A DNA stretch of 30,863 nucleotides, from contig NEEC01000489.1 of NCBI GenBank assembly GCA_002189035.1, positions 1 through 30,863 on the forward strand, given 5' to 3'. The stretch's first letter is position 1. Each line of letters begins with the position of its first letter. Both the position numbers and the translations under genes were made by a program. Shown here in pieces: positions 214 to 29,816 of this stretch. Under the pieces are notes generated by a model that had not been told where the DNA came from, did not search any database, and saw nothing but the letters and a program-made list of their open reading frames with translations. The stretch is from Utricularia gibba. Lineage: Eukaryota; Streptophyta; Magnoliopsida; Lamiales; Lentibulariaceae.

Positions 214-1935
214 ATGATCATCTCGAAATCCAAATTTCACATCGTCCCATGAAATACATATGTCTTGCATGCCGAAAATCACATTCGCATCGAGTCGGGT
301 GTCCCGAGTCGCATCGTCGCGAACGTGGTGGCCACTTCGTTGCACATCTTAAGGCTAATATAAGGCAATCTTTCGAGCATTTGTGCCTCCTCGGACGAAC
401 AAGTTCTCAACACGAAAGAGACCGGCTCGGAACGAGCTTCGAAACGGTATGCTATGTGCAACATGACTCATCACCGTTTGCAAGATATCCACTCGATACC
501 GAAGAGTGCACGAGGCCACCATGAGGTTGTGGCTAGGGACACACCATGGCATCTTAAATGATCATCTCGAAATCCAAAATTTCACATCGTCCATGAAATA
601 CATATGTCTTGCATGCCGAAAATCACATTCGCATCGAGTCGGGTGTCCCGAGTCGCATCGTCGCGAACGTGGTGGCCACTTCGTTGCACATCTGAAGGCT
701 AATATAAGGCAATCTTTCGAGCATTTGTGCCTCCTCGACGAACAAGTTCTCAACACGAAAGAAGACCGGCTCGGAACGAGCTTCGAAACGGTATGCTATG
801 TGCAACATGACTCATCACCATTTGCAAGATATCCACTCGATACCGAAGAGTGCACGAGGCCACCATGAGGTTGTGGCTAGGGACACACCCATGGCATCTT
901 AAATGATCATCTCGAAATCCAAAAATTCACATCGTCCCATGAAATACATATGTCTTGCATGCCGAAAATCACATTCGCATCGAGTCGGGTGTCCCGAGTC
1001 GCATCGTCGCGAACGTGGTGGCCACTTCGTTGCACATCTTAAGGCTAATATAAGGCAATCTTTCGAGCATTTGTGCCTCCTCGGACGAACAAGTTCTCAA
1101 CACGAAAGAGACCGGCTCGGAACGAGCTTCGAAACGGTATGCTATGTGCAACATGACTCATCACCATTTGCAAGATATCCACTCGATACCGAAGAGTGCA
1201 CGAGGCCACCATGAGGTTGTGGCTAGGGACACACCATGGCATCTTAAATGATCATCTCGAAATCCAAAATTCACATCGTCCCATGAAATACATATGTCTT
1301 GCATGCAAAAATCACATTCGCATCGAGTCGGTGTCCCGAGTCGCATCGTCGCGAACGTGGTGGCCACTTCGTTGCACATCTGAAGGCTAATATAAGGCAA
1401 TCTTTCGAGCATTTGTGCCTCCTCGGACGAACAAGTTCTCAACACGAAAGAAGACCGGCTCGGAACGAGCTTCGAAACGGTATGCTATGTGCAACATGAC
1501 TCATCACCATTTGCAAGATATCCACTCGATACCGAAGAGTGCACGAGGCCACCATGAGGTTGTGGCTAGGGACACACCCATGGCATCTTAAATGATCATC
1601 TCGAAATCCAAATATTCACATCGTCCCATGAAATACATATGTCTTGCATGCCGAAAATCACATTCGCATCGAGTCGGGTGTCCCGAGTCGCATCGTCGCG
1701 AACGTGGTGGCCACTTCGTTGCACATCTGAAGGCTAATATAAGGCAATCTTTCGAGCATTTGTGCCTCTCGGACGAACAAGTTCTCAACACGAAAGAAAC
1801 GGCTCGGAACGAGCTTCGAAACGGTATGCTATGTGCAACATGACTCATCACCATTTGCAAGATATCCACTCGATACCGAAGAGTGCACGAGGCCACCATG
1901 AGGTTGTGGCTAGGGACACACCCATGGCATCTTAA

Positions 1936-2254
1936 ATGATCATCTCGAAATCCAAAATTTTCACATCGTCCATGAAAATATGTCTTGCATGCCGAAAATC
2001 ACATTCGCATCGAGTCGGGTGTCCCGAGTCGCATCGTCGCGAACGTGGCCACTTCGTTGCACATCTAAGGCTAATATAAGGCAATCTTTCGAGCATTTGT
2101 GCCTCCTCGCGAACAAGTTCTCAACACGAAAGAGACCGGCTCGGAACGTATGTGCAACATGACTCATCACCGTTTGCAAGATATCCACTCGATACCGAAG
2201 AGTGCACGAGGCCACCATGAGGTTGTGGCTAGGGACACACCCATGGCATCTTAA
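1936..2254 (+). repeat. Short monomer 6 (319 bp)
   Basis: Several small losses are visible: CGTCCATGAAAATATG near consensus 31-50, GAACGTGGCCAC near 109-123, CTCGCGAACAAG near 178-190, and CGGAACGTATGTGC where about 17 bp are missing. The CGTCCATG loss is shared with monomer 23, 17 units later. It has the CACCGTTTG allele. Confidence 0.85.
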
Positions 2255-3975
2255 ATGATCATCTCGAAATCCAAAATTTCACATCGTCCCATGAAATACA
2301 TATGTCTTGCATGCCGAAAATCACATTCGCATCGAGTCGGGTGTCCCGAGTCGCATCGTCGCGAACGTGGTGGCCACTTCGTTGCACATCTGAAGGCTAA
2401 TATAAGGCAATCTTTCGAGCATTTGTGCCTCCTCGGACGAACAAGTTCTCAACACGAAAGAAGACCGGCTCGGAACGAGCTTCGAAACGGTATGCTATGT
2501 GCAACATGACTCATCACCGTTTGCAAGATATCCACTCGATACCGAAGAGTGCACGAGGCCACCATGAGGTTGTGGCTAGGGACACACCCATGGCATCTTA
2601 AATGATCATCTCGAAATAATTTCACATCGTCCCATGAAATACATATGTCTTGCATGCCGAAAATCACATTCGCATCGAGTCGGTGTCCCGAGTCGCATCG
2701 TCGCGAACGTGGTGGCCACTTCGTTGCACATCTGAAGGCTAATATAAGGCAATCTTTCGAGCATTTGTGCCTCCTCGGACGAACAAGTTCTCAACACGAA
2801 AGAAGACCGGCTCGGAACGAGCTTCGAAACGGTATGATATGCAACATGACTCATCACCATTTGCAAGATATCCACTCGATACCGAAGAGTGCACGAGGCC
2901 ACCATGAGGTTGTGGCTAGGGACACACCCATGGCATCTTAAATGATCATCTCGAAATCCAAATATTCACATCGTCCCATGAAATACATATGTCTTGCATG
3001 CCGAAAATCACATTCGCATCGAGTCGGGTGTCCCGAGTCGCATCGTCGCGAACGTGGTGGCCACTTCGTTGCACATCGGCTAATATAAGGCAATCTTTCG
3101 AGCATTTGTGCCTCCTCGGACGAACAAGTTCTCAACACGAAAGAAGACCGGCTCGGAACGAGCTTCGAAACGGTATGCTATGTGCAACATGACTCATCAC
3201 CGTTTGCAAGATATCCACTCGATACCGAAGAGTGCACGAGGCCACCATGAGGTTGTGGCTAGGGACACACCCATGGCATCTTAAATGATCATCTCGAAAT
3301 CCAAAATTCACATCGTCCCATGAAATACATATGTCTTGCATGCCGAAAATCACATTCGCATCGAGTCGGGTGTCCCGAGTCGCATCGTCGCGAACGTGTG
3401 GCCACTTCGTTGCACATCTTAAGGCTAATATAAGGCAATCTTTCGAGCATTTGTGCCTCCTCGGACGAACAAGTTCTCAACACGAAAGAAGACCGGCTCG
3501 GAACGAGCTTCGAAACGGTATGCTATGTGCAACATGACTCATCACCGTTTGCAAGATATCCACTCGATACCGAAGAGTGCACGAGGCCACCATGAGGTTG
3601 TGGCTAGGGACACACCCATGGCATCTTAAATGATCATCTCGAAATCCAAATATTCACATCGTCCCATGAAATACATATGTCTTGCATGCCGAAAATCACA
3701 TTCGCATCGAGTCGGGTGTCCCGAGTCGCATCGTCGCGAACGTGGTGGCCACTTCGTTGCACATCTGAAGGCTAATATAAGGCAATCTTTCGAGCATTTG
3801 TGCCTCCTCGGACGAACAAGTTCTCAACACGAAAGAAGACCGGCTCGGAACGAGCTTCGAAACGGTATGCTATGTGCAACATGACTCATCACCATTTGCA
3901 AGATATCCACTCGATACCGAAGAGTGCACGAGGCCACCATGAGGTTGTGGCTAGGGACACACCCATGCATCTTAA

Positions 3976-4294
3976 ATGATCATCTCGAAATCCAAATATT
4001 CACATCGTCCCATGAAATACATATGTCTTGCATGCCGAAAATCACATTCGCATCGAGTCGGGTGTCCCGAGTCGCATCGTCGCGAACGTGTGGCCACTTC
4101 GTTGCACATCTGAAGGCTAATATAAGGCAATCTTTCGAGCATTTGTGCCCTCGGACGAACAAGTTCTCAACGAAAGAGACCGGCTCGGAACGCTCAACAT
4201 GACTCATCACCGTTTGCAAGATATCCACTCGATACCGAAGAGTGCACGAGGCCACCATGAGGTTGTGGCTAGGGACACACCCATGGCATCTTAA
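3976..4294 (+). repeat. Short monomer 12 (319 bp)
   Basis: Losses give GTGCCCTCGG, CTCAACGAAAGAGACC and CGGAACGCTCAACATG. It has the CACCGTTTG allele. Its partners are monomer 56 (44 later) and monomer 29 (17 later). Confidence 0.85.
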
Positions 4295-4640
4295 ATGATC
4301 ATCTCGAAATCCAAATTTCACATCGTCCCATGAAATACATATGTCTTGCATGCCGAAAATCACATTCGCATCGAGTCGGGTGTCCCGAGTCGCATCGTCG
4401 CGAACGTGGTGGCCACTTCGTTGCACATCTGAAGGCTAATATAAGGCAATCTTTCGAGCATTTGTGCCTCCTCGGACGAACAAGTTCTCAACACGAAAGA
4501 AGACCGGCTCGGAACGAGCTTCGAAACGGTATGCTATGTGCAACATGACTCATCACCATTTGCAAGATATCCACTCGATACCGAAGAGTGCACGAGGCCA
4601 CCATGAGGTTGTGGCTAGGGACACACCCATGGCATCTTAA

Positions 4641-4963
4641 ATGATCATCTCGAAATCCAAAATTCACATCGTCCCATGAAATACATATGTCTTGCATGCC
4701 GAAAATCACATTCGCATCGAGTCGGTGTCCCGAGTCGCATCGTCGCGAACGTGGTGGCCACTTCGTTGCACATCTGAAGGCTAATATAAGGCAATCTTTC
4801 GAGCATTTGTGCCTCCTCGGACGAACAAGTTCTCAACACGAAAGAGACCGGCTCGGATATGTGCAACATGACTCATCACCGTTTGCAAGATATCCACTCG
4901 ATACCGAAGAGTGCACGAGGCCACCATGAGGTTGTGGCTAGGGACACACCCATGGCATCTTAA
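4641..4963 (+). repeat. Short monomer 14 (323 bp)
   Basis: One main deletion joins CTCGGA to TATGTGC, removing most of consensus 221-242. It also carries GTCGGTGTC. Its partner 44 units on is monomer 58, but monomer 31 (17 units on) is full length. Confidence 0.85.
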
Positions 4964-5650
4964 ATGATCATCTCGAAATCCAAATTCACATCGTCCCATG
5001 AAATACATATGTCTTGCATGCCGAAAATCACATTCGCATCGAGTCGGGTGTCCCGAGTCGCATCGTCGCGAACGTGGTGGCCACTTCGTTGCACATCTGA
5101 AGGCTAATATAAGGCAATCTTTCGAGCATTGTGCCTCCTCGGACGAACAAGTTCTCAACACGAAAGAAGACCGGCTCGGAACGAGCTTCGAAACGGTATG
5201 CTATGTGCAATGACTCATCACCATTTGCAAGATATCCACTCGATACCGAAGAGTGCACGAGGCCACCATGAGGTTGTGGCTAGGGACACACCCATGGCAT
5301 CTTAAATGATCATCTCGAAATCCAAATATTCACATCGTCCCATGAAATACATATGTCTTGCATGCCGAAAATCACATTCGCATCGAGTCGGGTGTCCCGA
5401 GTCGCATCGTCGCGAACGTGTGGCCACTTCGTTGCACATCTTAAGGCTAATATAAGGCAATCTTTCGAGCATTTGTGCCTCCTCGGACGAACAAGTTCTC
5501 AAACGAAAGAAGACCGGCTCGGAACGAGCTTCGAAACGGTATGCTATGTGCAACATGACTCATCACCGTTTGCAAGATATCCACTCGATACCGAAGAGTG
5601 CACGAGGCCACCATGAGGTTGTGGCTAGGGACACACCCATGGCATCTTAA

Positions 5651-5921
5651 ATGATCATCTCGAAATCCAAATTTCACATCGTCCCATGAAATACATATGT
5701 CTTGCATGCCGAAAATCACATTCGCATCGAGTCGGGTGTCCCGAGTCGCATCGTCGCGAACGTGTGGCCACTTCGTTGCACATCTTAAGGCTAATATAAG
5801 GCAATCTTTCGAGCATTTGTGCCTCCTCGGACGAACAAGTTCTCAACACGAAAGGACCGGCTCGGAAAACATGGCGAAAACGAGTGCACATGACGTTGTG
5901 GACACACCCATGGCATCTTAA
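5651..5921 (+). repeat. Strongly shortened monomer 17 (271 bp)
   Basis: After GGCTCGGAA the unit reads AACATGGCGAAAACGAGTG, then CACATGACGTTGTGGACAC, so most of consensus 222-325 is lost, including GCTAGGG. Apart from this the unit is ordinary. The 263-bp monomer 61 has the same arrangement. Confidence 0.85.
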
Positions 5922-7635
5922 ATGATCATCTCGAAATCCAAATATTCACATCGTCCCATGAAATACATATGTCTTGCATGCCGAAAATCACATTCGCATC
6001 GAGTCGGGTGTCCCGAGTCGCATCGTCGCGAACGTGTGGCCACTTCGTTGCACATCTTAAGGCTAATATAAGGCAATCTTTCGAGCATTTGTGCCTCCTC
6101 GGACGAACAAGTTCTCAACACGAAAAGACCGGCTCGGAACGAGCTTCGAAACGGTATGCTATGTGCAACATGACTCATCACCATTTGCAAGATATCCACT
6201 CGATACCGAAGAGTGCACGAGGCCACCATGAGGTTGTGGCTAGGGACACACCCATGGCATCTTAAATGATCATCTCGAAATCCAAATATTCACATCGTCC
6301 CATGAAATACATATGTCTTGCATGCCGAAAATCACATTCGCATCGAGTCGGGTGTCCCGAGTCGCATCGTCGCGAACGTGTGGCCACTTCGTTGCACATC
6401 TTAAGGCTAATATAAGGCAATCTTTCGAGCATTTGTGCCTCCTCGGACGAACAAGTTCTCAACACGAAAGAGACCGGCTCGGAACGAGCTTCGAAACGGT
6501 ATGCTATGTGCAACATGACTCATCACCATTTGCAAGATATCCACTCGATACCGAAGAGTGCACGAGGCCACCATGAGGTTGTGGCTAGGGACACACCCAT
6601 GGCATCTTAAATGATCATCTCGAAATCCAAATATTCACATCGTCCCATGAAATACATATGTCTTGCATGCCGAAAATCACATTCGCATCGAGTCGGGTGT
6701 CCCGAGTCGCATCGTCGCGAACGTGGTGGCCACTTCGTTGCACATCTGAAGGCTAATATAAGGCAATCTTTCGAGCATTTGTGCCTCCTCGGACTTCTCA
6801 ACACGAAAGAAGACCGGCTCGAACGAGCTTCGAAACGGTATGCTATGTGCAACATGACTCATCACCATTTGCAAGATATCCACTCGATACCGAAGAGTGC
6901 ACGAGGCCACCATGAGGTTGTGGCTAGGGACACACCCATGGCATCTTAAATGATCATCTCGAAATCCAAATTTTCACATCGTCCCATGAAATACATATGT
7001 CTTGCATGCAAAAATCACATTCGCATCGAGTCGGTGTCCCGAGTCGCATCGTCGCGAACGTGTGGCCACTTCGTTGCACATCTGAAGGCTAATATAAGGC
7101 AATCTTTCGAGCATTTGTGCCTCCTCGGACGAACAAGTTCTCAACAAAGAAGACCGGCTCGGAACGAGCTTCGAAACGGTATGATATGTGCAACATGACT
7201 CATCACCATTTGCAAGATATCCACTCGATACCGAAGAGTGCACGAGGCCACCATGAGGTTGTGGCTAGGGACACACCCATGGCATCTTAAATGATCATCT
7301 CGAAATCCAAATTTCACATCGTCCCATGAAATACATATGTCTTGCATGCCGAAAATCACATTCGCATCGAGTCGGGTGTCCCGAGTCGCATCGTCGCGAA
7401 CGTGTGGCCACTTCGTTGCACATCTTAAGGCTAATATAAGGCAATCTTTCGAGCATTTGTGCCTCCTCGGACGAACAAGTTCTCAACACGAAAGAAGACC
7501 GGCTCGGAACGAGCTTCGAAACGGTATGCTATGTGCAACATGACTCATCACCGTTTGCAAGATATCCACTCGATACCGAAGAGTGCACGAGCCCACCATG
7601 AGGTTGTGGCTAGGGACACACCCATGGCATCTTAA

Positions 7636-7930
7636 ATGATCATCTCGAAATCCAAATTTCACATCGTCCATGAAATAATATGTCTTGCATGCCGAAAATC
7701 ACATTCGCATCGAGTCGGGTGTCCCGAGTCGCATCGTCGCGAACGTGTGGCCACTTCGTTGCACATCTTAAGGCTAATATAAGGCAATCTTTCGAGCATT
7801 TGTGCCTCCTCGACGAACAAGTTCTCAACACGAAAAAGAACGAGCTCGAACGCTATGTGCAACATGACTCATCACCATTTGCGCAAGAGTGCACGAGACC
7901 ATGGTTGTGGACACACCCATGGCATCTTAA
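7636..7930 (+). repeat. Shortened monomer 23 (295 bp)
   Basis: It carries CGTCCATGAAATAATATG near the start and lost bases in the variable part (GAGCTCGAACGCTATGTGC, then CATTTGCGCAAGAGTGC and ACCATGGTTGTGGACAC). Partner monomer 67 has matching breakpoints around CGCTATGTG and TTTGCG. Confidence 0.85.
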
Positions 7931-9657
7931 ATGATCATCTCGAAATCCAAATATTCACATCGTCCCATGAAATACATATGTCTTGCATGCCGAAAATCAC
8001 ATTCGCATCGAGTCGGGTGTCCCGAGTCGCATCGTCGCGAACGTGTGGCCACTTCGTTGCACATCTTAAGGCTAATATAAGGCAATCTTTCGAGCATTTG
8101 TGCCTCCTCGGACGAACAAGTTCTCAACACGAAAGAAGACCGGCTCGGAACGAGCTTCGAAACGGTATGCTATGTGCAACATGACTCATCACCATTTGCA
8201 AGATATCCACTCGATACCGAAGAGTGCACGAGGCCACCATGAGGTTGTGGCTAGGGACACACCCATGGCATCTTAAATGATCATCTCGAAATCCAAATAT
8301 TCACATCGTCCCATGAAATACATATGTCTTGCATGCCGAAAATCACATTCGCATCGAGTCGGTGTCCCGAGTCGCATCGTCGCGAACGTGGTGGCCACTT
8401 CGTTGCACTTCTGAAGGCTAATATAAGGCAATCTTTCGAGCATTTGTGCCTCCTCGGACGAACAAGTTCTCAACACGAAAGAGACCGGCTCGGAACGAGC
8501 TTCGAAACGGTATGCTATGTGCAACATGACTCATCACCATTTGCAAGATATCCACTCGATACCGAAGAGTGCACGAGGCCACCATGAGGTTGTGGCTAGG
8601 GACACACCCATGGCATCTTAAATGATCATCTCGAAATCCAAATATTCACATCGTCCCATGAAATACATATGTCTTGCATGCCGAAAATCACATTCGCATC
8701 GAGTCGGGTGTCCCGAGTCGCATCGTCGCGAACGTGGTGGCCACTTCGTTGCACATCTGAAGGCTAATATAAGGCAATCTTTCGAGCATTTGTGCCTCCT
8801 CGGACGAACAAGTTCTCAACACGAAAGAAGACCGGCTCGGAACGAGCTTCGAAACGGTATGCTATGTGCAACATGACTCATCACCATTTGCAAGATATCC
8901 ACTCGATACCGAAGAGTGCACGAGGCCATGATGAGGTTGTGGCTAGGGACACACCCATGGCATCTTAAATGATCATCTCGAAATCCAAATTTCACATCGT
9001 CCCATGAAATAAATATGTCTTGCATGCAAAAATCACATTCGCATCGAGTCGGTGTCCCGAGTCGCATCGTCGCGAACGTGTGGCCACTTCGTTGCACATC
9101 TGAAGGCTAATATAAGGCAATCTTTCGAGCATTTGTGCCTCCTCGGACGAACAAGTTCTCAAAACGAAAAGAAGACCGGCTCGGAACGAGCTTCGAAACG
9201 GTATGCTATGTGCAACATGACTCATCACCATTTGCAAGATATCCACTCGATACCGAAGAGTGCACGAGGCACCATGAGGTTGTGGCTAGGGACACACCCA
9301 TGGCATCTTAAATGATCATCTCGAAATCCAAATATTCACATCGTCCCATGAAATACATATGTCTTGCATGCCGAAAATCACATTCGCATCGAGTCGGGTG
9401 TCCCGAGTCGCATCGTCGCGAACGTGTGGCCACTTCGTTGCACATCTTAAGGCTAATATAAGGCAATCTTTCGAGCATTTGTGCCTCCTCGGACGAACAA
9501 GTTCTCAACACGAAAGAAGACCGGCTCGGAACGAGCTTCGAAACGGTATGCTATGTGCAACATGACTCATCACCGTTTGCAAGATATCCACTCGATACCG
9601 AAGAGTGCACGAGGCCACCATGAGGTTGTGGCTAGGGACACACCCATGGCATCTTAA

Positions 9658-9919
9658 ATGATCATCTCGAAATCCAAATTTCACATCGTCCCATGAAATA
9701 ATATGTCTTGCATGCCGAAAATCACATTCGCATCGAGTCGGGTGTCCCGAGTCGCATCGTCGCGAACGTGTGGCCACTTCGTTGCACATCTTAAGGCTAA
9801 TATAAGGCAATCTTTCGAGCATTTGTGCCTCCTCGGACGAACAAGTTCTCAACACGAAAGAGACTTAAACGCAATCTAGTGCACAGACCATGAGTTGTGG
9901 ACACACCATGGCATCTTAA
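9658..9919 (+). repeat. Shortest monomer 29 (262 bp)
   Basis: After CACGAAAGAGAC the unit reads TTAAACGCAATCTAGTGC and then ACAGACCATGAGTTGTGG, removing most of consensus 210-325. The start carries AAATAATATG. Partner monomer 73 (294 bp) shares AAACGC and CCATGAGTTGTGGACAC but keeps more of the middle. Confidence 0.85.
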
Positions 9920-11295
9920 ATGATCATCTCGAAATCCAAATATTCACATCGTCCCATGAAATACATATGTCTTGCATGCCGAAAATCACATTCGCATCGA
10001 GTCGGGTGTCCCGAGTCGCATCGTCGCGAACGTGTGGCCACTTCGTTGCACATCTTAAGGCTAATATAAGGCAATCTTTCGAGCATTTGTGCCTCCTCGG
10101 ACGAACAAGTTCTCAACACGAAAGAGACCGGCTCGGAACGAGCTTCGAAACGGTATGCTATGTGCAACATGACTCATCACCATTTGCAAGATATCCACTC
10201 GATACCGAAGAGTGCACGAGGCCACCATGAGGTTGTGGCTAGGGACACCCATGGCATCTTAAATGATCATCTCGAAATCCAAATATTCACATCGTCCCAT
10301 GAAATACATATGTCTTGCATGCCGAAAATCACATTCGCATCGAGTCGGTGTCCCGAGTCGCATCGTCGCGAACGTGGTGGCCACTTCGTTGCACATCTTA
10401 AGGCTAATATAAGGCAATCTTTCGAGCATTTGTGCCTCCTCGGACGAACAAGTTCTCAACACGAAAGAAGACCGGCTCGGAACGAGCTTCGAAACGGTAT
10501 GCTATGTGCAACATGACTCATCACCATTTGCAAGATATCCACTCGATACCGAAGAGTGCACGAGGCCACCATGAGGTTGTGGCTAGGGACACCCCATGGC
10601 ATCTTAAATGATCATCTCGAAATCCAAATATTCACATCGTCCCATGAAATACATATGTCTTGCATGCCGAAAATCACATTCGCATCGAGTCGGGTGTCCC
10701 GAGTCGCATCGTCGCGAACGTGGTGGCCACTTCGTTGCACATCTGAAGGCTAATATAAGGCAATCTTTCGAGCATTTGTGCCTCCTCGGACGAACAAGTT
10801 CTCAACACGAAAGAAGACCGGCTCGAACGAGCTTCGAAACGGTATGCTATGTGCAACATGACTCATCACCATTTGCAAGATATCCACTCGATACCGAAGA
10901 GTGCACGAGGCCACCATGAGGTTGTGGCTAGGGACACACCCATGGCATCTTAAATGATCATCTCGAAATCCAAATTTCACATCGTCCCATGAAATACATA
11001 TGTCTTGCATGCAAAAATCACATTCGCATCGAGTCGGGTGTCCCGAGTCGCATCGTCGCGAACGTGGTGGCCACTTCGTTGCACATCTGAAGGCTAATAT
11101 AAGGCAATCTTTCGAGCATTTGTGCCTCCTCGGACGAACAAGTTCTCAACACGAAAGAAGACCGGCTCGAACGCTTCGAAACGGTATGCTATGTGCAACA
11201 TGACTCATCACCATTTGCAAGATATCCACTCGATACCGAAGAGTGCACGAGGCCACCATGAGGTTGTGGCTAGGGACACACCCATGGCATCTTAA

Positions 11296-11612
11296 ATGAT
11301 CATCTCGAAATCCAAATTTCACATCGTCCCATGAAATACATATGTCTTGCATGCCGAAAATCACATTCGCATCGAGTCGGGTGTCCCGAGTCGCATCGTC
11401 GCGAACGTGTGGCCACTTCGTTGCACATCTTAAGGCTAACAATCTTTCGAGCATTTGTGCCTCCTCTGCAAAAGACGGGTATCGGAACGAGCTTCGAAAC
11501 GGTATGCTATGTGCAACATGACTCATCACGTTTGCAAGATATCCACTCGATACCGAAGAGTGCACGAGGCCACCATGAGGTTGTGGCTAGGGACACACCC
11601 ATGGCATCTTAA
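11296..11612 (+). repeat. Monomer 34 (317 bp) with divergent CTGCAAAAG segment
   Basis: It loses TATAAGG near consensus 147-153. The stretch from CCTCCTC to CGGAACG is replaced by a shorter one reading TGCAAAAGACGGGTAT. A similar segment occurs in monomers 78 and 84. The rest follows the consensus, apart from a small loss at CATCACGTTTGC. Confidence 0.8.
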
Positions 11613-17019: not shown

Positions 17020-18737
17020 ATGATCATCTCGAAATCCAAAATTTCACATCGTCCCATGAAATACATATGTCTTGCATGCCGAAAATCACATTCGCATCGA
17101 GTCGGGTGTCCCGAGTCGCATCGTCGCGAACGTGGTGGCCACTTCGTTGCACATCTGAAGGCTAATATAAGGCAATCTTTCGAGCATTTGTGCCTCCTCG
17201 GACGAACAAGTTCTCAACACGAAGAAGACCGGCTCGGAACGAGCTTCGAAACGGTATGCTATGTGCAACATGACTCATCACCATTTGCAAGATATCCACT
17301 CGATACCGAAGAGTGCACGAGGCCACCATGAGGTTGTGGCTAGGGACACACCCATGGCATCTTAAATGATCATCTCGAAATCCAAATTTCACATCGTCCC
17401 ATGAAATAAATATGTCTTGCATGCAAAAATCACATTCGCATCGAGTCGGTGTCCCGAGTCGCATCGTCGCGAACGTGTGGCCATTCGTTGCACATCTGAA
17501 GGCTAATATAAGGCAATCTTTCGAGCATTTGTGCCTCCTCGGACGAACAAGTTCTCAAACGAAAGAAGACCGGCTCGGAACGAGCTTCGAAACGGTATGC
17601 TATGTGCAACATGACTCATCACCGTTTGCAAGATATCCACTCGATACCGAAGAGTGCACGAGGCCACCATGAGGTTGTGGCTAGGGACACACCCATGGCA
17701 TCTTAAATGATCATCTCGAAATCCAAATATTCACATCGTCCCATGAAATACATATGTCTTGCATGCCGAAAATCACATTCGCATCGAGTCGGGTGTCCCG
17801 AGTCGCATCGTCGCGAACGTGTGGCCACTTCGTTGCACATCTTAAGGCTAATATAAGGCAATCTTTCGAGCATTTGTGCCTCCTCGGACGAACAAGTTCT
17901 CAACACGAAAGAGGCTCGGAACGAGCTTCGAAACGGTATGCTATGTGCAACATGACTCATCACCATTTGCAAGATATCCACTCGATACCGAAGAGTGCAC
18001 GAGGCCACCATGAGGTTGTGGCTAGGGACACACCCATGGCATCTTAAATGATCATCTCGAAATCCAAATATTCACATCGTCCCATGAAATACATATGTCT
18101 TGCATGCCGAAAATCACATTCGCATCGAGTCGGGTGTCCCGAGTCGCATCGTCGCGAACGTGTGGCCACTTCGTTGCACATCTTAAGGCTAATATAAGGC
18201 AATCTTTCGAGCATTTGTGCCTCCTCGGACGAACAAGTTCTCAACACGAAAGAAACCGGCTCGGAACGAGCTTCGAAACGGTATGCTATGTGCAACATGA
18301 CTCATCACCGTTTGCAAGATATCCACTCGATACCGAAGAGTGCACGAGGCCACCATGAGGTTGTGGCTAGGGACACACCCATGGCATCTTAAATGATCAT
18401 CTCGAAATCCAAATATTCACATCGTCCCATGAAATACATATGTCTTGCATGCCGAAAATCACATTCGCATCGAGTCGGGTGTCCCGAGTCGCATCGTCGC
18501 GAACGTGTGGCCACTTCGTTGCACATCTGAAGGCTAATATAAGGCAATCTTTCGAGCATTTGTGCCTCCTCGGACGAACAAGTTCTCAACACGAAAGAAG
18601 ACCGGCTCGAACGAGCTTCGAAACGGTATGCTATGTGCAACATGACTCATCACCATTTGCAAGATATCCACTCGATACCGAAGAGTGCACGAGGCCACCA
18701 TGAGGTTGTGGCTAGGGACACACCCATGGCATCTTAA

Positions 18738-19061
18738 ATGATCATCTCGAAATCCAAATTTCACATCGTCCCATGAAATAATATGTCTTGCATGCGAAAA
18801 TCACATTCGCATCGAGTTGTCCCGAGTCGCATCGTCGCGAACGTGTGGCCACTTCGTTGCACATCTTAAGGCTAATATAAGGCAATCTTTCGAGCATTTG
18901 TGCCTCCTCGGACGAACAAGTTCTCAACACGAAAGAGACCCGGCTTCGAACGGTATGTGTGCAACATGACTCATCACCGTTTGCAAGATATCCACTCGAT
19001 ACCGAAGAGTGCACGAGGCCACCATGAGGTTGTGGCTAGGGACACACCCATGGCATCTTAA
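18738..19061 (+). repeat. Short monomer 56 (324 bp)
   Basis: It has AAATAATATG, GCATGCGAAAATC and CGAGTTGTCCCGAG near the start. The variable part reads GAGACCCGGCTTCGAACGG then TATGTGTGCAAC. It shares AAATAATATG with monomer 29 and the CACCGTTTG allele with monomer 12. Confidence 0.85.
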
Positions 19062-19406
19062 ATGATCATCTCGAAATCCAAAATTTCACATCGTCCCATG
19101 AAATACATGTCTTGCATGCCGAAAATCACATTCGCATCGAGTCGGGTGTCCCGAGTCGCATCGTCGCGAACGTGGTGGCCACTTCGTTGCACATCTGAAG
19201 GCTAATATAAGGCAATCTTTCGAGCATTTGTGCCTCCTCGGACGAACAAGTTCTCAACACGAAAGAAGACCGGCTCGGAACGAGCTTCGAAACGGTATGC
19301 TATGTGCAACATGACTCATCACCATTTGCAAGATATCCACTCGATACCGAAGAGTGCACGAGGCCACCATGAGGTTGTGGCTAGGGACACACCCATGGCA
19401 TCTTAA

Positions 19407-19734
19407 ATGATCATCTCGAAATCCAAATTTCACATCGTCCCATGAAATACATATGTCTTGCATGCCGAAAATCACATTCGCATCGAGTCGGTGTCCCGAG
19501 TCGCATCGTCGCGAACGTGGTGGCCACTTCGTTGCACATCTGAAGGCTAATATAAGGCAATCTTTCGAGCATTTGTGCCTCCTCGGACGAACAAGTTCTC
19601 AACACGAAAGAAGACCGGCTTCGAACGCTATGTGCAACATGACTCATCACCATTTGCAAGATATCCACTCGATACCGAAGAGTGCACGAGGCCACCATGA
19701 GGTTGTGGCTAGGGACACACCCATGGCATCTTAA
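19407..19734 (+). repeat. Short monomer 58 (328 bp)
   Basis: GGCTTCGAACGCTATGTG marks the recurrent deletion, and GTCGGTGTC is present, as in its partner monomer 14. Confidence 0.85.
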
Positions 19735-20427
19735 ATGATCATCTCGAAATCCAAAATTTCACATCGTCCCATGAAATACATATGTCTTGCATGCCGAAAA
19801 TCACATTCGCATCGAGTCGGGTGTCCCGAGTCGCATCGTCGCGAACGTGGTGGCCACTTCGTTGCACATCTGAAGGCTAATATAAGGCAATCTTTCGAGC
19901 ATTTGTGCCTCCTCGGACGAACAAGTTCTCAACACGAAAGAGACCGGCTCGGAACGAGCTTCGAAACGGTATGCTATGTGCAACATGACTCATCACCATT
20001 TTGCAAGATATCCACTCGATACCGAAGAGTGCACGAGGCCACCATGAGGTTGTGGCTAGGGACACACCCATGGCATCTTAAATGATCATCTCGAAATCCA
20101 AATATTCACATCGTCCCATGAAATACATATGTCTTGCATGCCGAAAATCACATTCGCATCGAGTCGGGTGTCCCGAGTCGCATCGTCGCGAACGTGTGGC
20201 CACTTCGTTGCACATCTTAAGGCTAATATAAGGCAATCTTTCGAGCATTTGTGCCTCCTCGGACGAACAAGTTCTCAACACGAAAGAAGACCGGCTCGGA
20301 ACGAGCTTCGAAACGGTATGCTATGTGCAACATGACTCATCACCGTTTGCAAGATATCCACTCGATACCGAAGAGTGCACGAGGCCACCATGAGGTTGTG
20401 GCTAGGGACACACCCATGGCATCTTAA

Positions 20428-20690
20428 ATGATCATCTCGAAATCCAAATTTCACATCGTCCCATGAAATACATATGTCTTGCATGCCGAAAATCACATTC
20501 GCATCGAGTCGGGTGTCCCGAGTCGCATCGTCGCGAACGTGTGGCCACTTCGTTGCACATCTTAAGGCTAATATAAGGCAATCTTTCGAGCATTTGTGCC
20601 TCCTCGGACGAACAAGTTCTCAACACGAAAGTTCGGAACGAACATGAGCGAAAAAGTGCACAGGTTGTGGACACACCCATGGCATCTTAA
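20428..20690 (+). repeat. Strongly shortened monomer 61 (263 bp)
   Basis: After CACGAAAG the unit reads TTCGGAACGAACATGAGCG, then AAAAAGTGCACAGGTTGTGG and ACACACCC. It has the same general arrangement as monomer 17, but the exact retained bases differ. Confidence 0.85.
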
Positions 20691-22154
20691 ATGATCATCT
20701 CGAAATCCAAATATTCACATCGTCCCATGAAATACATATGTCTTGCATGCCGAAAATCACATTCGCATCGAGTCGGGTGTCCCGAGTCGCATCGTCGCGA
20801 ACGTGTGGCCACTTCGTTGCACATCTGAAGGCTAATATAAGGCAATCTTTCGAGCATTTGTGCCTCCTCGGACGAACAAGTTCTCAACACGAAAAAAGAC
20901 CGGCTCGGAACGAGCTTCGAAACGGTATGCTATGTGCAACATGACTCATCACCATTTGCAAGATATCCACTCGATACCGAAGAGTGCACGAGGCCACCAT
21001 GAGGTTGTGGCTAGGGACACACCCATGGCATCTTAAATGATCATCTCGAAATCCAAAATATTCACATCGTCCCATGAAATACATATGTCTTGCATGCCGA
21101 AAATCACATTCGCATCGAGTCGGTGTCCCGAGTCGCATCGTCGCGAACGTGGTGGCCACTTCGTTGCACATCTTAAGGCTAATATAAGGCAATCTTTCGA
21201 GCATTTGTGCCTCCTCGGACGAACAAGTTCTCAACACGAAAGAGACCGGCTCGGAACGAGCTTCGAAACGGTATGCTATGTGCAACATGACTCATCACCA
21301 TTTGCAAGATATCCACTCGATACCGAAGAGTGCACGAGGCCACCATGAGGTTGTGGCTAGGGACACACCCATGGCATCTTAAATGATCATCTCGAAATCC
21401 AAATTTCACATCGTCCCATGAAATACATATGTCTTGCATGCCGAAAATCACATTCGCATCGAGTCGGGTGTCCCGAGTCGCATCGTCGCGAACGTGGTGG
21501 CCACTTCGTTGCACATCTGAAGGCTAATATAAGGCAATCTTTCGAGCATTTGTGCCTCCTCGGACGAACAAGTTCTCAACACGAAAGAAGACCGGCTCGG
21601 AACGAGCTTCGAAACGGTATGCTATGTGCAACATGACTCATCACCATTTGCAAGATATCCACTCGATACCGAAGAGTGCACGAGGCCACCATGAGGTTGT
21701 GGCTAGGGACACACCCATGGCATCTTAAATGATCATCTCGAAATCCAAATTTCACATCGTCCCATGAAATACATATGTCTTGCATGCCGAAAATCACATT
21801 CGCATCGAGTCGGTGTCCCGAGTCGCATCGTCGCGAACGTGTGGCCACTTCGTTGCACATCTGAAGGCTAATATAAGGCAATCTTTCGAGCATTTGTGCC
21901 TCCTCGGACGAACAAGTTCTCAACACGAAAGAAGACCGGCTCGGAACGAGCTTCGAAACGGTATGCTATGTGCAACATGACTCATCACCATTTGCAAGAT
22001 ATCCACTCGATACCGAAGAGTGCACGAGGCCACCATGAGGTTGTGGCTAGGGACACACCCATGGCATCTTAAATGATCATCTCGAAATCCAAATATTCAC
22101 ATCGTCCCATGAAATACATATGTCTTGCATGCCGAAAATCACATTCGCATCGAG

Positions 22155-22167
22155 TCGGGTGTCCCGA
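22155..22167. repeat. Short perfect inverted repeat in every monomer (reference copy)
   Basis: TCGGGTGTCCCGA can pair as a 5-bp stem (TCGGG/CCCGA) around a TGT loop. It is flanked by two direct copies of CGAGTCG spaced 14 bp apart. The element sits at consensus 83-95 and recurs in nearly all monomers. About a fifth of monomers lose one G here (TCGGTGTCCCGA), which shortens the stem. The stem is small, so structural significance is unproven, but the one-base loss is a useful marker for following monomer types through the array. Confidence 0.6.
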
Positions 22168-22245
22168 GTCGCATCGTCGCGAACGTGGTGGCCACTTCGT
22201 TGCACATCTTAAGGCTAATATAAGGCAATCTTTCGAGCATTTGTG

Positions 22246-22407
22246 CCTCCTCGGACGAACAAGTTCTCAACACGAAAGAAGACCGGCTCGGAACGAGCTT
22301 CGAAACGGTATGCTATGTGCAACATGACTCATCACCATTTGCAAGATATCCACTCGATACCGAAGAGTGCACGAGGCCACCATGAGGTTGTGGCTAGGGA
22401 CACACCC
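22246..22407 (+). other. Variable part of the monomer, consensus ~174-335 (reference copy)
   Basis: Most of the large deletions in the shortened monomers fall in this part of the unit; those in the 11296, 13313, 26113 and 28139 units begin further upstream. The most frequent event removes about 17 bp between CGGAACG and CTATGTG (consensus about 217-245), a segment that contains TTCGAA. In contrast, consensus 1-133 is almost unchanged across the 91 units apart from single-base differences. The boundary is judged by eye and is approximate. Confidence 0.65.
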
Positions 22408-22419
22408 ATGGCATCTTAA

Positions 22420-22720
22420 ATGATCATCTCGAAATCCAAATTTCACATCGTCCCATGAAATACATATGTCTTGCATGCCGAAAATCATTCGCATCGAGTC
22501 GGGTGTCCCGAGTCGCATCGTCGCGAACGTGGTGGCCACTTCGTTGCACATCTTAAGGCTAATATAAGGCAATCTTTCGAGCATTTGTGCCTCCTCGGAC
22601 GAACAAGTTCTCAACACGAAAGAGACCGGCTCGGAACGCTATGTGCAACATGACTCATCACCGTTTGCGAAAAGAGTGCACGAGGCCATGAGTTGTGGCT
22701 ACACACCCATGGCATCTTAA
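22420..22720 (+). repeat. Shortened monomer 67 (301 bp)
   Basis: GAAAATCATTCGC has lost CA. CGGAACGCTATGTG is the recurrent deletion. TTTGCGAAAAGAGTGC skips the GATATCCACTCGATACC part, and GCCATGAGTTGTGGCTACAC is shortened. Its partner is monomer 23. Confidence 0.85.
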
Positions 22721-23755
22721 ATGATCATCTCGAAATCCAAATATTCACATCGTCCCATGAAATACATATGTCTTGCATGCCGAAAATCACATTCGCATCG
22801 AGTCGGGTGTCCCGAGTCGCATCGTCGCGAACGTGGTGGCCACTTCGTTGCACATCTGAAGGCTAATATAAGGCAATCTTTCGAGCATTTGTGCCTCCTC
22901 GGACGAACAAGTTCTCAACACGAAAGAGACCGGCTCGGAACGAGCTTCGAAACGGTATGCTATGTGCAACATGACTCATCACCATTTGCAAGATATCCAC
23001 TCGATACCGAAGAGTGCACGAGGCCACCATGAGGTTGTGGCTAGGGACACACCCATGGCATCTTAAATGATCATCTCGAAATCCAAATATTCACATCGTC
23101 CCATGAAATACATATGTCTTGCATGCCGAAAATCACATTCGCATCGAGTCGGTGTCCCGAGTCGCATCGTCGCGAACGTGGTGGCCACTTCGTTGCACAT
23201 CTGAAGGCTAATATAAGGCAATCTTTCGAGCATTTGTGCCTCCGGACGAACAAGTTCTCAACACGAAAGAGACCGGCTCGGAACGAGCTTCGAAACGGTA
23301 TGCTATGTGCAACATGACTCATCACCATTTGCAAGATATCCACTCGATACCGAAGAGTGCACGAGGCCACCATGAGGTTGTGGCTAGGGACACACCCATG
23401 GCATCTTAAATGATCATCTCGAAATCCAAATTTCACATCGTCCCATGAAATACATATGTCTTGCATGCCGAAAATCACATTCGCATCGAGTCGGGTGTCC
23501 CGAGTCGCATCGTCGCGAACGTGGTGGCCACTTCGTTGCACATCTGAAGGCTAATATAAGGCAATCTTTCGAGCATTTGTGCCTCCTCGGACGAACAAGT
23601 TCTCAACACGAAAGAAGACCGGCTCGGAACGAGCTTCGAAACGGTATGCTATGTGCAACATGACTCATCACCATTTGCAAGATATCCACTCGATACCGAA
23701 GAGTGCACGAGGCCACCATGAGGTTGTGGCTAGGGACACACCCATGGCATCTTAA

Positions 23756-24090
23756 ATGATCATCTCGAAATCCAAATTTCACATCGTCCCATGAAATACA
23801 TATGTCTTGCATGCAAAAATCACATTCGCATCGAGTCGGTGTCCCGAGTCGCATCGTCGCGAACGTGTGGCCACTTCGTTGCACATCTAAGGCTAATATA
23901 AGGCAATCTTTCGAGCATTTGTGCCTCCTCGGACGAACAAGTTCTCAAACGAAAGGGCTCGGAACGAGCTTCGAAACGGTATGCTATGTGCAACATGACT
24001 CATCACCATTTGCAAGATATCCACTCGATACCGAAGAGTGCACGAGGCCACCATGAGGTTGTGGCTAGGGACACACCCATGGCATCTTAA
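23756..24090 (+). repeat. Mildly short monomer 71 (335 bp)
   Basis: It carries GCATGCAAAAATC, GTCGGTGTC and GTGTGGCC, all shared with monomer 27 at a shift of 44. Losses are CATCTAAGG and CTCAAACGAAAGGGCTCGG. Confidence 0.85.
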
Positions 24091-24436
24091 ATGATCATCT
24101 CGAAATCCAAATATTCACATCGTCCCATGAAATACATATGTCTTGCATGCCGAAAATCACATTCGCATCGAGTCGGGTGTCCCGAGTCGCATCGTCGCGA
24201 ACGTGTGGCCACTTCGTTGCACATCTTAAGGCTAATATAAGGCAATCTTTCGAGCATTTGTGCCTCCTCGGACGAACAAGTTCTCAACACGAAAGAAGAC
24301 CGGCTCGGAACGAGCTTCGAAACGGTATGATATGTGCAACATGACTCATCACCGTTTGCAAGATATCCACTCGATACCGAAGAGTGCACGAGGCCACCAT
24401 GAGGTTGTGGCTAGGGACACACCCATGGCATCTTAA

Positions 24437-24730
24437 ATGATCATCTCGAAATCCAAATTTCACATCGTCCCATGAAATACATATGTCTTGCATGCCGAAA
24501 ATCACATTCGCATCGAGTCGGGTGTCCCGAGTCGCATCGTCGCGAACGTGGTGGCCACTTCGTTGCACATCTTAAGGCTAATATAAGGCAATCTTTCGAG
24601 CATTTGTGCCTCCTCGGACGAACAAGTTCTCAACACGAAAGAGACCAAACGCTATGTGCAACATGACTCATGTTTGCAATCGAAGAGTGCACGAGGCCCA
24701 TGAGTTGTGGACACACCCATGGCATCTTAA
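24437..24730 (+). repeat. Shortened monomer 73 (294 bp)
   Basis: GAGACCAAACGCTATGTGC and GACTCATGTTTGCAATCG show losses through the variable part. It ends GGCCCATGAGTTGTGGACAC, like monomer 29. Confidence 0.85.
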
Positions 24731-26112
24731 ATGATCATCTCGAAATCCAAATATTCACATCGTCCCATGAAATACATATGTCTTGCATGCCGAAAATCAC
24801 ATTCGCATCGAGTCGGTGTCCCGAGTCGCATCGTCGCGAACGTGTGGCCACTTCGTTGCACATCTGAAGGCTAATATAAGGCAATCTTTCGAGCATTTGT
24901 GCCTCCTCGGACGAACAAGTTCTCAACACGAAAGAAGACCGGCTCGGAACGAGCTTCGAAACGGTATGCTATGTGCAACATGACTCATCACCATTTGCAA
25001 GATATCCACTCGATACCGAAGAGTGCACGAGGCCACCATGAGGTTGTGGCTAGGGACACACCCATGCATCTTAAATGATCATCTCGAAATCCAAATATTC
25101 ACATCGTCCCATGAAATACATATGTCTTGCATGCCGAAAATCACATTCGCATCGAGTCGGGTCCCGAGTCGCATCGTCGCGAACGTGGTGGCCACTTCGT
25201 TGCACATCTTAAGGCTAATATAAGGCAATCTTTCGAGCATTTGTGCCTCCTCGGACGAACAAGTTCTCAACACGAAAGAGACCGGCTCGGAACGAGCTTC
25301 GAAACGGTATGCTATGTGCAACATGACTCATCACCATTTGCAAGATATCCACTCGATACCGAAGAGTGCACGAGGCCACCATGAGGTTGTGGCTAGGGAC
25401 ACACCCATGGCATCTTAAATGATCATCTCGAAATCCAAATATTCACATCGTCCCATGAAATACATATGTCTTGCATGCCGAAAATCACATTCGCATCGAG
25501 TCGGGTGTCCCGAGTCGCATCGTCGCGAACGTGGTGGCCACTTCGTTGCACATCTGAAGGCTAATATAAGGCAATCTTTCGAGCATTTGTGCCTCCTCGG
25601 ACGAACAAGTTCTCAACACGAAAGAAGACCGGCTCGGAACGAGCTTCGAAACGGTATGCTATGTGCAACATGACTCATCACCATTTGCAAAGATATCCAC
25701 TCGATACCGAAGAGTGCACGAGGCCACCATGAGGTTGTGGCTAGGGACACACCCATGGCATCTTAAATGATCATCTCGAAATCCAAATTTTCACATCGTC
25801 CCATGAAATACATATGTCTTGCATGCCGAAAATCACATTCGCATCGAGTCGGGTGTCCCGAGTCGCATCGTCGCGAACGTGGTGGCCACTTCGTTGCACA
25901 TCTGAAGGCTAATATAAGGCAATCTTTCGAGCATTTGTGCCTCCTCGGACGAACAAGTTCTCAACACGAAAGAAGACCGGCTCGGAACGAGCTTCGAAAC
26001 GGTATGCTATGTGCAACATGACTCATCACCATTTGCAAGATATCCACTCGATACCGAAGAGTGCACGAGGCCACCATGAGGTTGTGGCTAGGGACACACC
26101 ATGGCATCTTAA

Positions 26113-26428
26113 ATGATCATCTCGAAATCCAAATTTCACATCGTCCCATGAAATACATATGTCTTGCATGCCGAAAATCACATTCGCATCGAGTCGGGTG
26201 TCCCGAGTCGCATCGTCGCGAACGTGGTGGCCACTTCGTTGCACATCTCTAATATAAGGCAATCTTCGAGCATTTGTGCATGCAAAAAGACGTGTCTCGG
26301 AACGAGCTTCGAAACGGTATGCTATGTGCAACATGACTCATCACCGTTTGCAAGATATCCACTCGATACCGAAGAGTGCACGAGGCCACCATGAGGTTGT
26401 GGCTAGGGACACACCCATGGCATCTTAA
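26113..26428 (+). repeat. Monomer 78 (316 bp) with divergent TGCAAAAAGACG segment
   Basis: CACATCTCTAATATAAGG lacks several bases. After ATTTGTGC the unit reads ATGCAAAAAGACGTGTCTCG in place of the usual CCTCCTCGGACGAAC stretch. Monomer 34 has a similar replacement at a shift of 44. Confidence 0.8.
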
Positions 26429-26775
26429 ATGATCATCTCGAAATCCAAATTTCACATCGTCCCATGAAATACATATGTCTTGCATGCCGAAAAATCACAT
26501 TCGCATCGAGTCGGGTGTCCCGAGTCGCATCGTCGCGAACGTGGTGGCCACTTCGTTGCACATCTGAAGGCTAATATAAGGCAATCTTTCGAGCATTTGT
26601 GCCTCCTCGGACGAACAAGTTCTCAACACGAAAGAAGACCGGCTCGGAACGAGCTTCGAAACGGTATGCTATGTGCAACATGACTCATCACCATTTGCAA
26701 GATATCCACTCGATACCGAAGAGTGCACGAGGCCACCATGAGGTTGTGGCTAGGGACACACCCATGGCATCTTAA

Positions 26776-27102
26776 ATGATCATCTCGAAATCCAAATTTC
26801 ACATCGTCCCATGAAATACATATGTCTTGCATGCCGAAAATCACATTCGCATCGAGTCGGGTGTCCCGAGTCGCATCGTCGCGAACGTGGTGGCCACTTC
26901 GTTGCACATCTTAAGGCTAATATAAGGCAATCTTTCGAGCATTTGTGCCTCCTCGGACGAACAAGTTCTCAACACGAAAGAGACCGGCTCGGAGTATGTA
27001 TGCAACATGACTCATCACCATTTGCAAGATATCCACTCGATACCGAAGAGTGCACGAGGCCACCATGAGGTTGTGGCTAGGGACACACCCATGGCATCTT
27101 AA
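26776..27102 (+). repeat. Short monomer 80 (327 bp)
   Basis: The deletion reads GGCTCGGAGTATGTATGC, removing most of consensus 221-240. Its partner is monomer 36. The junction looks more like that of monomer 14. Confidence 0.85.
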
Positions 27103-28138
27103 ATGATCATCTCGAAATCCAAATATTCACATCGTCCCATGAAATACATATGTCTTGCATGCCGAAAATCACATTCGCATCGAGTCGGGTGTCCCGAGTC
27201 GCATCGTCGCGAACGTGTGGCCACTTCGTTGCACATCTGAAGGCTAATATAAGGCAATCTTTCGAGCATTTGTGCCTCTCGGACGAACAAGTTCTCAACA
27301 CGAAAGAGACCGGCTCGGAACGAGCTTCGAAACGGTATGCTATGTGCAACATGACTCATCACCATTTGCAAGATATCCACTCGATACCGAAGAGTGCACG
27401 AGGCCACCATGAGGTTGTGGCTAGGGACACACCCATGGCATCTTAAATGATCATCTCGAAATCCAAAATTTCACATCGTCCCATGAAATACATATGTCTT
27501 GCATGCCGAAAATCACATTCGCATCGAGTCGGTGTCCCGAGTCGCATCGTCGCGAACGTGGTGGCCACTTCGTTGCACATCTGAAGGCTAATATAAGGCA
27601 ATCTTTCGAGCATTTGTGCCTCCTCGGACGAACAAGTTCTCAACACGAAAGAAGACCGGCTCGGAACGAGCTTCGAAACGGTATGCTATGTGCAACATGA
27701 CTCATCACCATTTGCAAGATATCCACTCGATACCGAAGAGTGCACGAGGCCACCATGAGGTTGTGGCTAGGGACACACCCATGGCATCTTAAATGATCAT
27801 CTCGAAATCCAATATTCACATCGTCCCATGAAATACATATGTCTTGCATGCCGAAAATCACATTCGCATCGAGTCGGGTGTCCCGAGTCGCATCGTCGCG
27901 AACGTGGTGGCCACTTCGTTGCACATCTGAAGGCTAATATAAGGCAATCTTTCGAGCATTTGTGCCTCCTCGGACGAACAAGTTCTCAACACGAAAGAAG
28001 ACCGGCTCGGAACGAGCTTCGAAACGGTATGCTATGTGCAACATGACTCATCACCATTTGCAAGATATCCACTCGATACCGAAGAGTGCACGAGGCCACC
28101 ATGAGGTTGTGGCTAGGGACACACCCATGGCATCTTAA

Positions 28139-28459
28139 ATGATCATCTCGAAATCCAAATTTTCACATCGTCCCATGAAATACATATGTCTTGCATGCGA
28201 AAATCACATTCGCATCGAGTCGGGTGTCCCGAGTCGCATCGTCGCGAACGTGGTGGCCACTTCGTTGGGCTAATATAAGGCAATCTTTCGAGCATTTGTG
28301 CCTCCTCTGCAAAAGGTACATGAACCGGCTCGGAACGAGCTTCGAAACGGTATGCTATGTGCAACATGACTCATCACCGTTTGCAATATCCACTCGATAC
28401 CGAAGAGTGCACGAGGCCACCATGAGGTTGTGGCTAGGGACACACCCATGGCATCTTAA
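28139..28459 (+). repeat. Monomer 84 (321 bp) with divergent CTGCAAAAGG segment
   Basis: CTTCGTTGGGCTAATATAAGG lacks the CACATCTGAA stretch. CCTCCTCTGCAAAAGGTAC then ATGAACCGG replaces the usual GGACGAACAAGTTCTCAAC part. TTGCAATATCC lacks GA. It resembles monomer 34 more than its positional partner, monomer 40. Confidence 0.8.
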
Positions 28460-29147
28460 ATGATCATCTCGAAATCCAAATTTCACATCGTCCCATGAAA
28501 TACATATGTCTTGCATGCCGAAAATCACATTCGCATCGAGTCGGTGTCCCGAGTCGCATCGTCGCGAACGTGGTGGCCACTTCGTTGCACATCTGAAGGC
28601 TAATATAAGGCAATCTTTCGAGCATTTGTGCCTCCTCGGACGAACAAGTTCTCAACACGAAAGAAGACCGGCTCGGAACGAGCTTCGAAACGGTATGCTA
28701 TGTGCAACATGACTCATCACCATTTGCAAGATATCCACTCGATACCGAAGAGTGCACGAGGCCACCATGAGGTTGTGGCTAGGGACACACCCATGGCATC
28801 TTAAATGATCATCTCGAAATCCAAATTTCACATCGTCCCATGAAATACATATGTCTTGCATGCCGAAAATCACATTCGCATCGAGTCGGTGTCCCGAGTC
28901 GCATCGTCGCGAACGTGGTGGCCACTTCGTTGCACATCTGAAGGCTAATATAAGGCAATCTTTCGAGCATTTGTGCCCTCGGACGAACAAGTTCTCAACA
29001 CGAAAGAAGACCGGCTCGGAACGAGCTTCGAAACGGTATGCTATGTGCAACATGACTCATCACCATTTGCAAGATATCCACTCGATACCGAAGAGTGCAC
29101 GAGGCCACCATGAGGTTGTGGCTAGGGACACACCCATGGCATCTTAA

Positions 29148-29474
29148 ATGATCATCTCGAAATCCAAATTTCACATCGTCCCATGAAATACATATGTCTT
29201 GCATGCCGAAAATCACATTCGCATCGAGTCGGGTGTCCCGAGTCGCATCGTCGCGAACGTGTGGCCACTTCGTTGCACATCTTAAGCTAATATAAGGCAA
29301 TCTTTCGAGCATTTGTGCCTCCTCGGACGAACAAGTTCTCAACACGAAAGAGACCGGCTCGGAACGCTAATGTGCAACATGACTCATCACCGTTTGCAAG
29401 ATATCCACTCGATACCGAAGAGTGCACGAGGCCACCATGAGGTTGTGGCTAGGGACACACCCATGGCATCTTAA
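29148..29474 (+). repeat. Short monomer 87 (327 bp)
   Basis: CTTAAGCTAAT lacks a G pair, and CGGAACGCTAATGTGC is the recurrent deletion with one extra A. It has the CACCGTTTG allele, as in partner monomer 43. Confidence 0.85.
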
Positions 29475-29816
29475 ATGATCATCTCGAAATCCAAATATTC
29501 ACATCGTCCCATGAAATACATATGTCTTGCATGCCGAAAATCACATTCGCATCGAGTCGGGTGTCCCGAGTCGCATCGTCGAACGTGTGGCCACTTCGTT
29601 GCACATCTTAAGGCTAATATAAGGCAATCTTTCGAGCATTTGTGCCTCCTCGGACGAACAAGTTCTCAACACGAAAGAGACCGGCTCGGAACGAGCTTCG
29701 AAACGGTATGCTATGTGCAACATGACTCATCACCATTTGCAAGATATCCACTCGATACCGAAGAGTGCACGAGGCCACCATGAGGTTGTGGCTAGGGACA
29801 CACCATGGCATCTTAA

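Follow-up and report, generated by a model that had tools for sequence, protein, structure and literature searches.

An in-phase repeat of a 44-monomer block in a satellite contig of Utricularia gibba, possibly a local tandem duplication

Background

Plant satellites are known to contain internal tandem duplications. In maize CEN10 an adjacent duplication of 10 CentC monomers has been reported together with a 22.7-kb segmental duplication, the CentC duplications being attributed to the repair of double-strand breaks (PMC4806543). In this work we analysed a satellite array of the plant Utricularia gibba that fills contig NEEC01000489.1 (assembly GCA_002189035.1). The window, that is the whole stretch of DNA that was analysed, is this entire 30,863-bp contig, labelled C128, of an assembly of 100.1 Mb in 516 contigs. 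Inside it a block of 44 consecutive monomers, about 14.75 kb (~14.8 kb) long, is found twice, one copy after the other. It is for us an even call whether this reflects a single, recent tandem duplication, local and in phase, inside a larger array.

Two other kinds of structure can give a similar picture. The higher-order repeats (HORs) of the alpha-satellite style exist in many copies and are homogenised, and false duplications are known in long-read assemblies of satellites.

Results

The array and its short monomers

Tandem Repeats Finder (TRF) and anchoring both show that the contig is filled, in a single orientation, by a satellite with a unit of about 345 bp:

1-30863, forward strand: head-to-tail array of the ~345-bp satellite (TRF rows and 92 anchors; the ends of the contig are the ends of the window)

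Monomers were phased on the anchor sequence TAAATGATCATCTCGAAATCC, whose 92 occurrences delimit 91 complete monomers (m1-m91) spanning 211, where m1 begins, to 30,846; the last anchor follows at 30,847. The array is therefore satellite DNA in the usual sense, being long, head-to-tail and made of 91 complete, near-identical units in one orientation. A scan of positions 1-3000 against Rfam gave no match at the gathering score, and base autocorrelation over the whole window gave no information, since indels throw the units out of register.

The clearest signal comes from the short monomers, defined as those below 335 bp. They are listed here with the deletion types described below, each monomer of the first half being followed by its partner in the second:

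1933-2251, forward strand: m6, type 1; partner m50 at 16691-17016
3973-4291, forward strand: m12, type 1; partner m56 at 18735-19058
4638-4960, forward strand: m14, type 1; partner m58 at 19404-19731
5648-5918, forward strand: m17, type 2; partner m61 at 20425-20687
7633-7927, forward strand: m23, type 2; partner m67 at 22417-22717 (m67 without the exact 6-bp marker)
9655-9916, forward strand: m29, type 2; partner m73 at 24434-24727
11293-11609, forward strand: m34, type 3; partner m78 at 26110-26425
11955-12273, forward strand: m36, type 1; partner m80 at 26773-27099
13310-13604, forward strand: m40, type 3; partner m84 at 28136-28456
14291-14618, forward strand: m43, type 1; partner m87 at 29145-29471

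The original prediction had claimed that ten short monomers each have a short partner exactly 44 units later, and this is confirmed: all ten are matched against 2.1 expected (hypergeometric p 1.9e-10), with no miss in either direction. The spacing that is repeated is an irregular one (6,2,3,6,6,5,2,4,3), and over shifts 1-74 the short-monomer pattern correlates perfectly at shift 44 (r = 1.0), the runner-up being shift 61 with r = 0.58.

The short monomers can be divided into three deletion types, the classes and thresholds having been set post hoc, after inspection of the alignments. Type 1 lacks 18-27 bp near consensus positions 205-250 (the GGAACGAGCTTCGAAACGGTATGC region), type 2 lacks 45-84 bp near 205-330 and type 3 lacks 25-51 bp, mostly inside 125-206. 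The order of types, 1,1,1,2,2,2,3,1,3,1, is identical in m1-44 and m45-88, and this match of the type string was reached by none of 20,000 permutations evaluated over shifts 10-61. A 6-bp deletion, GTTGTGG/ACACACC, is clean in five of the six type 2 members. A clean 17-bp deletion junction is present twice in the window contig (in m43, of type 1, and in m67, of type 2) and once in contig C107, while the other short monomers carry variants of it. The positions of the scrambled patches in short monomers agree between partners, although their content differs. We infer that the deletions of the short monomers are genuine, and that reads coming from full-length monomers blurred the consensus there.

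Alleles and distances between monomers

Ten markers, nine sequence markers and the length class, were compared over 74 shifts, and seven of them, length class included, peak at shift 44. The six sequence markers with this best shift are GTCGGTGTC, CACCGTTTG, CATCTTAAGG, GAACGTGTGGCC, AAATATTCAC and GAAAGAGACC. For GTCGGTGTC the eight agreeing pairs previously indicated were found (8, 14, 21, 25, 27, 38, 42 and 45; 2.55 expected, p 5.8e-5), together with six discordant pairs that had gone unlisted. The CACCGTTTG allele, said to agree in eight pairs, does so literally in seven, m34 having lost one C, and nine pairs are discordant; its agreement at shift 44 has p 0.002. The first of these had been presented as an independent marker; complete independence does not hold for the markers, since the 270G allele correlates with shortness (r = 0.47). 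Units 44 and 88 (344 and 342 bp) differ in two alignment columns, as had been stated.

An all-against-all monomer matrix, suggested as a check with the original prediction, does contain a ridge at shift 44, which can be followed only within the window, the window being the whole contig. In the full matrix the mean distance at this shift is 10.98 columns (median 6); every other shift between 1 and 74 has a mean above 20, and shifts 75-79, with 12-16 pairs each, range from 15.8 to 20.2. The contrast shrinks when short monomers are removed: shift 44 then has a distance of 5.51, where the mean is 6.97, and only shift 57 is lower. In a second alignment restricted to clean monomers shift 44 is the lowest for substitutions (1.05). 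Full-length partners aligned directly are 98.64% identical (33 pairs), compared with a mean of 98.18% over shifts 1-59. Among full-length units shift 44 also has the fewest substitutions per kb of these shifts (2.77; mean 4.47, sd 0.51) and the second lowest number of indel events. A block of many monomers is thus repeated in register, with partners more alike than monomers at other shifts.

Extent of the block

A log-likelihood scan, whose parameters were fitted on the pairs at shift 44 and which consequently favours that shift, placed the shared run at pairs m5-m47 / m49-m91, up to the contig end, with a score of 54.8; the next shift was 6, with 21.7. A scan with a fixed parameter recovered the same m5-m47 run with a log-likelihood ratio (LLR) of 43.2, against a maximum of 14.9 in shuffles. 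The features delimited in this way are:

1589-16344, forward strand: 44-monomer block, first copy (m5-m48), whose left edge may lie anywhere from about m1 to m10
16345-30846, forward strand: second copy (m49-m91), cut by the contig end
5303-11292, forward strand: 6-monomer sub-period, in which m16-m27 resemble m22-m33 (LLR 21.7); repeated in the second copy

The type 2 monomers m17, m23 and m29 lie six units apart inside the sub-period. The comparison of m1-m4 with m45-m48 does not rise above background (mean 5.75 of 9 sites against 5.97), four pairs being little evidence. The junction between the copies keeps the monomer phase, and no phase break was seen.

A one-base deletion at consensus site 219 (d219, the d223 of the first alignment) behaves differently from the markers above. 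Eleven of its 13 occurrences fall within m32-m55 (10605-19058), a cluster that crosses the copy junction, and no pair shares it at shift 44. The p-value of the cluster, 3e-6, is uncorrected and refers to an interval picked post hoc among some 45 recurrent variants. More in general, 1-bp deletions recur at fixed sites in the satellite of the window.

The satellite in the rest of the genome

Exact matches of the 26-mer CACTCGATACCGAAGAGTGCACGAGG number 1,609 across the assembly, 84 of them in the window contig and 353 in C107, and a variant of it has 45 matches that name 14 contigs, 13 of which are shorter than 150 kb. Arrays of this satellite are therefore present elsewhere in the genome, on at least 14 contigs in all. 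Eleven of the 13 satellite contigs other than the window are 17.8-48.1 kb each. A 179-mer and a 114-mer typical of the window subfamily match only C107 and C128 (26 and 10 matches), and the block marker GTTGTGGACACACC(N)ATGGCATC, which represents the type 2 deletion, has five exact matches in the genome, all in the window contig.

The comparison with other arrays covered the whole of C107 (142.7 kb, 433 units) and C184 (48.1 kb, 140 units), 40,000 of the 41,133 bases of C331 (120 units) and, in C451, about 12.4 kb of array plus 3.6 kb of adjacent sequence; from the remaining nine satellite contigs only samples of 60 bases were taken. A scan for local duplications at shifts 10-200 gave the LLR of 43.2 for the window, matched by none of 60 shuffles. 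The same scan found in C107, C184 and C331 nothing beyond shuffles, which were as good or better in 58, 10 and 24 of 60 cases, its power being limited in the noisy C107 and C331, while C184 is cleaner. The block of the window was also sought in C107 and was not found (best diagonal -0.83, compared with -0.37 for the reversed order). In all three contigs the short shifts have the highest similarity or come close to it; in C331 they are exceeded by shifts 92-94, for which the units are few and noisy.

Concerning subfamilies, C331, C184 and the sampled part of C451 belong to a different one from C107 and C128, with differences that are shared and, in C184, near-fixed. These three contigs have in common changes at consensus sites 86, 100, 104 and 105, which are unlisted or rare in C107 and C128; 105T, for instance, occurs in 5 of 237 clean C107 monomers. 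As for sequence quality, the middle of C331 resembles raw reads and its ends are cleaner, and C107 has several stretches of the same kind.

Some small contigs consist entirely of the satellite (C107, C128 and C184, and C331 over the 40 kb read). In C451 it occupies, as sampled, the last ~34 kb, from 6,788,586 to about 6,822,852 of 6,822,880, and the first 400 bases of that contig contain CCCTAAA telomere repeats. The C451 array may be centromeric, pericentromeric or located at the other chromosome end.

A different repeat family, in two sequence groups, is shared by 17 of 20 small contigs sampled over their first 400 bases (C108-C140). It has no 12-mer in common with the satellite of the window and is probably a second major satellite. 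The mitochondrial cox1, located on C515, reads like a plant cox1 split by a single intron of about 960 bp. We take the gene to be of the angiosperm type, and the frame in its intron to be LAGLIDADG-type and homing-endonuclease-like.

Discussion

A local event or an array-wide period

The original prediction described the superperiod as either a tandem segmental duplication or a very long HOR, amplified in units of about 15 kb and not of one monomer. The 44-unit duplicated segment stands for this contig. The very long HOR finds no support, because there are two copies only, m1-m4 match no better than background (on four pairs) and three sibling contigs have no duplication exceeding their shuffles. 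The exact period and the order of length variants over 88 units are what a true HOR of 44 monomers would produce, with the contig showing two of many copies. A HOR, however, should have more than two copies spread along the array, and here two copies were found, C107, C184 and C331 (433, 140 and 120 units) contain no comparable run, the block itself was not found in C107 and its marker occurs only in C128. We regard this explanation as very unlikely, and an array-wide HOR was rejected, the shift scans of the three contigs, two of them noisy, being unsupportive. Since these three siblings have no duplication beyond shuffles and the block marker is confined to the window contig, one local event is indicated. 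The idea of a 15-kb amplification unit replacing the single monomer was too wide, considering the short-shift similarity of the siblings and the 6-monomer sub-period within the block.

Messy short patches, and single-base deletions recurring at fixed sites, could also suggest that the pattern arose by chance or by a systematic basecalling artefact shortening some monomers. We give this almost no credit: the permutations never reproduced the type order, substitution alleles agree as well, and an artefact that depends on the local sequence would not reproduce the irregular spacing of the short monomers.

One duplicated locus or one locus assembled twice

The original prediction had left out the possibility of a single locus assembled twice in an isolated, error-rich contig. 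According to this explanation the assembler took two noisy reads from a single locus and joined them at the wrong monomer register, and the two copies would be two error-laden readings of one template. We lean against it while considering it a serious contender. The contig, at 30.9 kb, has the scale of a few long reads, like most of the other satellite contigs; the second copy reaches the contig end; the exact matches of GTTGTGGACACACC(N)ATGGCATC are confined to this contig; and the patches of the short monomers are scrambled differently in each copy. Length types agree ten times out of ten but alleles at single-nucleotide polymorphisms (SNPs) and small indels agree partly, as would be the case for identical templates with noisy calls. 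The published Utricularia gibba assembly is described in a review as produced from PacBio reads with HGAP (PMC5793159), and the mean subread length given there, 10,385 bases, is shorter than the period, if the source is the same. On the other side, partners such as m24/m68 and m22/m66 have clean differences in some substitution alleles, and the d219 cluster crosses the junction without recurring at shift 44. The cluster favours continuous, distinct and physically joined copies, an argument to which we give little weight.

Several observations weigh against a duplication that truly exists in the genome. The 33 full-length partner pairs differ by 93 gap events and 28 substitutions, a proportion similar to that of uncorrected read noise. 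The assembly is moreover unreliable in these arrays, because C107 and C331 include stretches resembling uncorrected reads, where each monomer has tens of mismatches and gaps. Alleles at common sites agree only partially: 23 of 30 at site 142 (background 0.54), and 26 of 30 at both site 89 (background 0.60) and site 270. At six of nine sites agreement covers 0.4-0.7 of the distance between background and a perfect match, and at the remaining three it covers 0.1-0.3. The markers G65A, d223 and d341 peak elsewhere (at shifts 50, 71 and 48), and when gaps are counted among clean monomers shift 44 is only sixth lowest (5.24), the lowest being shift 6 (4.69). Rare two-copy k-mers (k = 21) have no excess at shift 44, which accounts for 1 of 23 monomer pairs and, when only those absent from C107 are considered, for 0 of 7. 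No private small variant therefore ties the copies together, and independent noise may hide such variants. Lastly, the d219 cluster could be an artefact of sequence quality in the middle of the contig.

We infer from the ten matches of length type that the two templates are nearly identical and that the remaining differences are consensus error, because gene conversion randomising half of the alleles would also have moved about half of the length variants. Near-identical templates fit equally a recent duplication and a locus assembled twice.

How the block may have been copied

If the tandem duplication is real, the copying may have involved unequal homologous exchange of sister chromatids, or the repair of a break inside the array, because the copied segment is a whole number of monomers and shows no phase break. 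The event would be recent, the set of length variants being unchanged, and most of the remaining differences between copies would be consensus errors of noisy long reads. As to function, ordinary satellite turnover would be sufficient, and we propose nothing further. It is conceivable, although we find it improbable, that this satellite turns over by rare copying of ~15-kb blocks with 6-monomer repeats nested in them, in a hierarchy of 1, then 6, then 44 units and not one monomer at a time.

A true duplication would show satellite expansion by blocks, caught at one moment, in a plant whose genome is very small. A false one would be a warning that a superperiod seen in a short contig can be produced by the assembly, when this is built from noisy long reads. 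The array is useful under either reading, given the 1,609 exact 26-mer matches on at least 14 contigs. A 2021 paper remarks that satellite repeats are absent from the putative centromeric regions of Utricularia gibba (PMC8333044). That remark merits a second look, because the satellite takes up entire small contigs and, as sampled, the terminal ~34 kb of the 6.82-Mb C451.

Comparison with known systems

With false duplications of assembly, a possible explanation here, the locus has in common two noisy versions of one block and an isolated, short contig. It resembles alpha-satellite HORs in that a multi-monomer unit is repeated in register, and differs from them in that only two copies are present, all in a single contig out of the four analysed at length. 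The CentC duplications of maize, found in arrays that also have HORs, come from bacterial artificial chromosomes (BACs) with a low measured error rate, whereas the present assembly is noisy and the copies are known from one contig. The size also differs, the CentC example involving 10 monomers and the present block 44. In both plants, however, consecutive monomers appear copied in tandem, and the partners at equivalent positions are the most alike.

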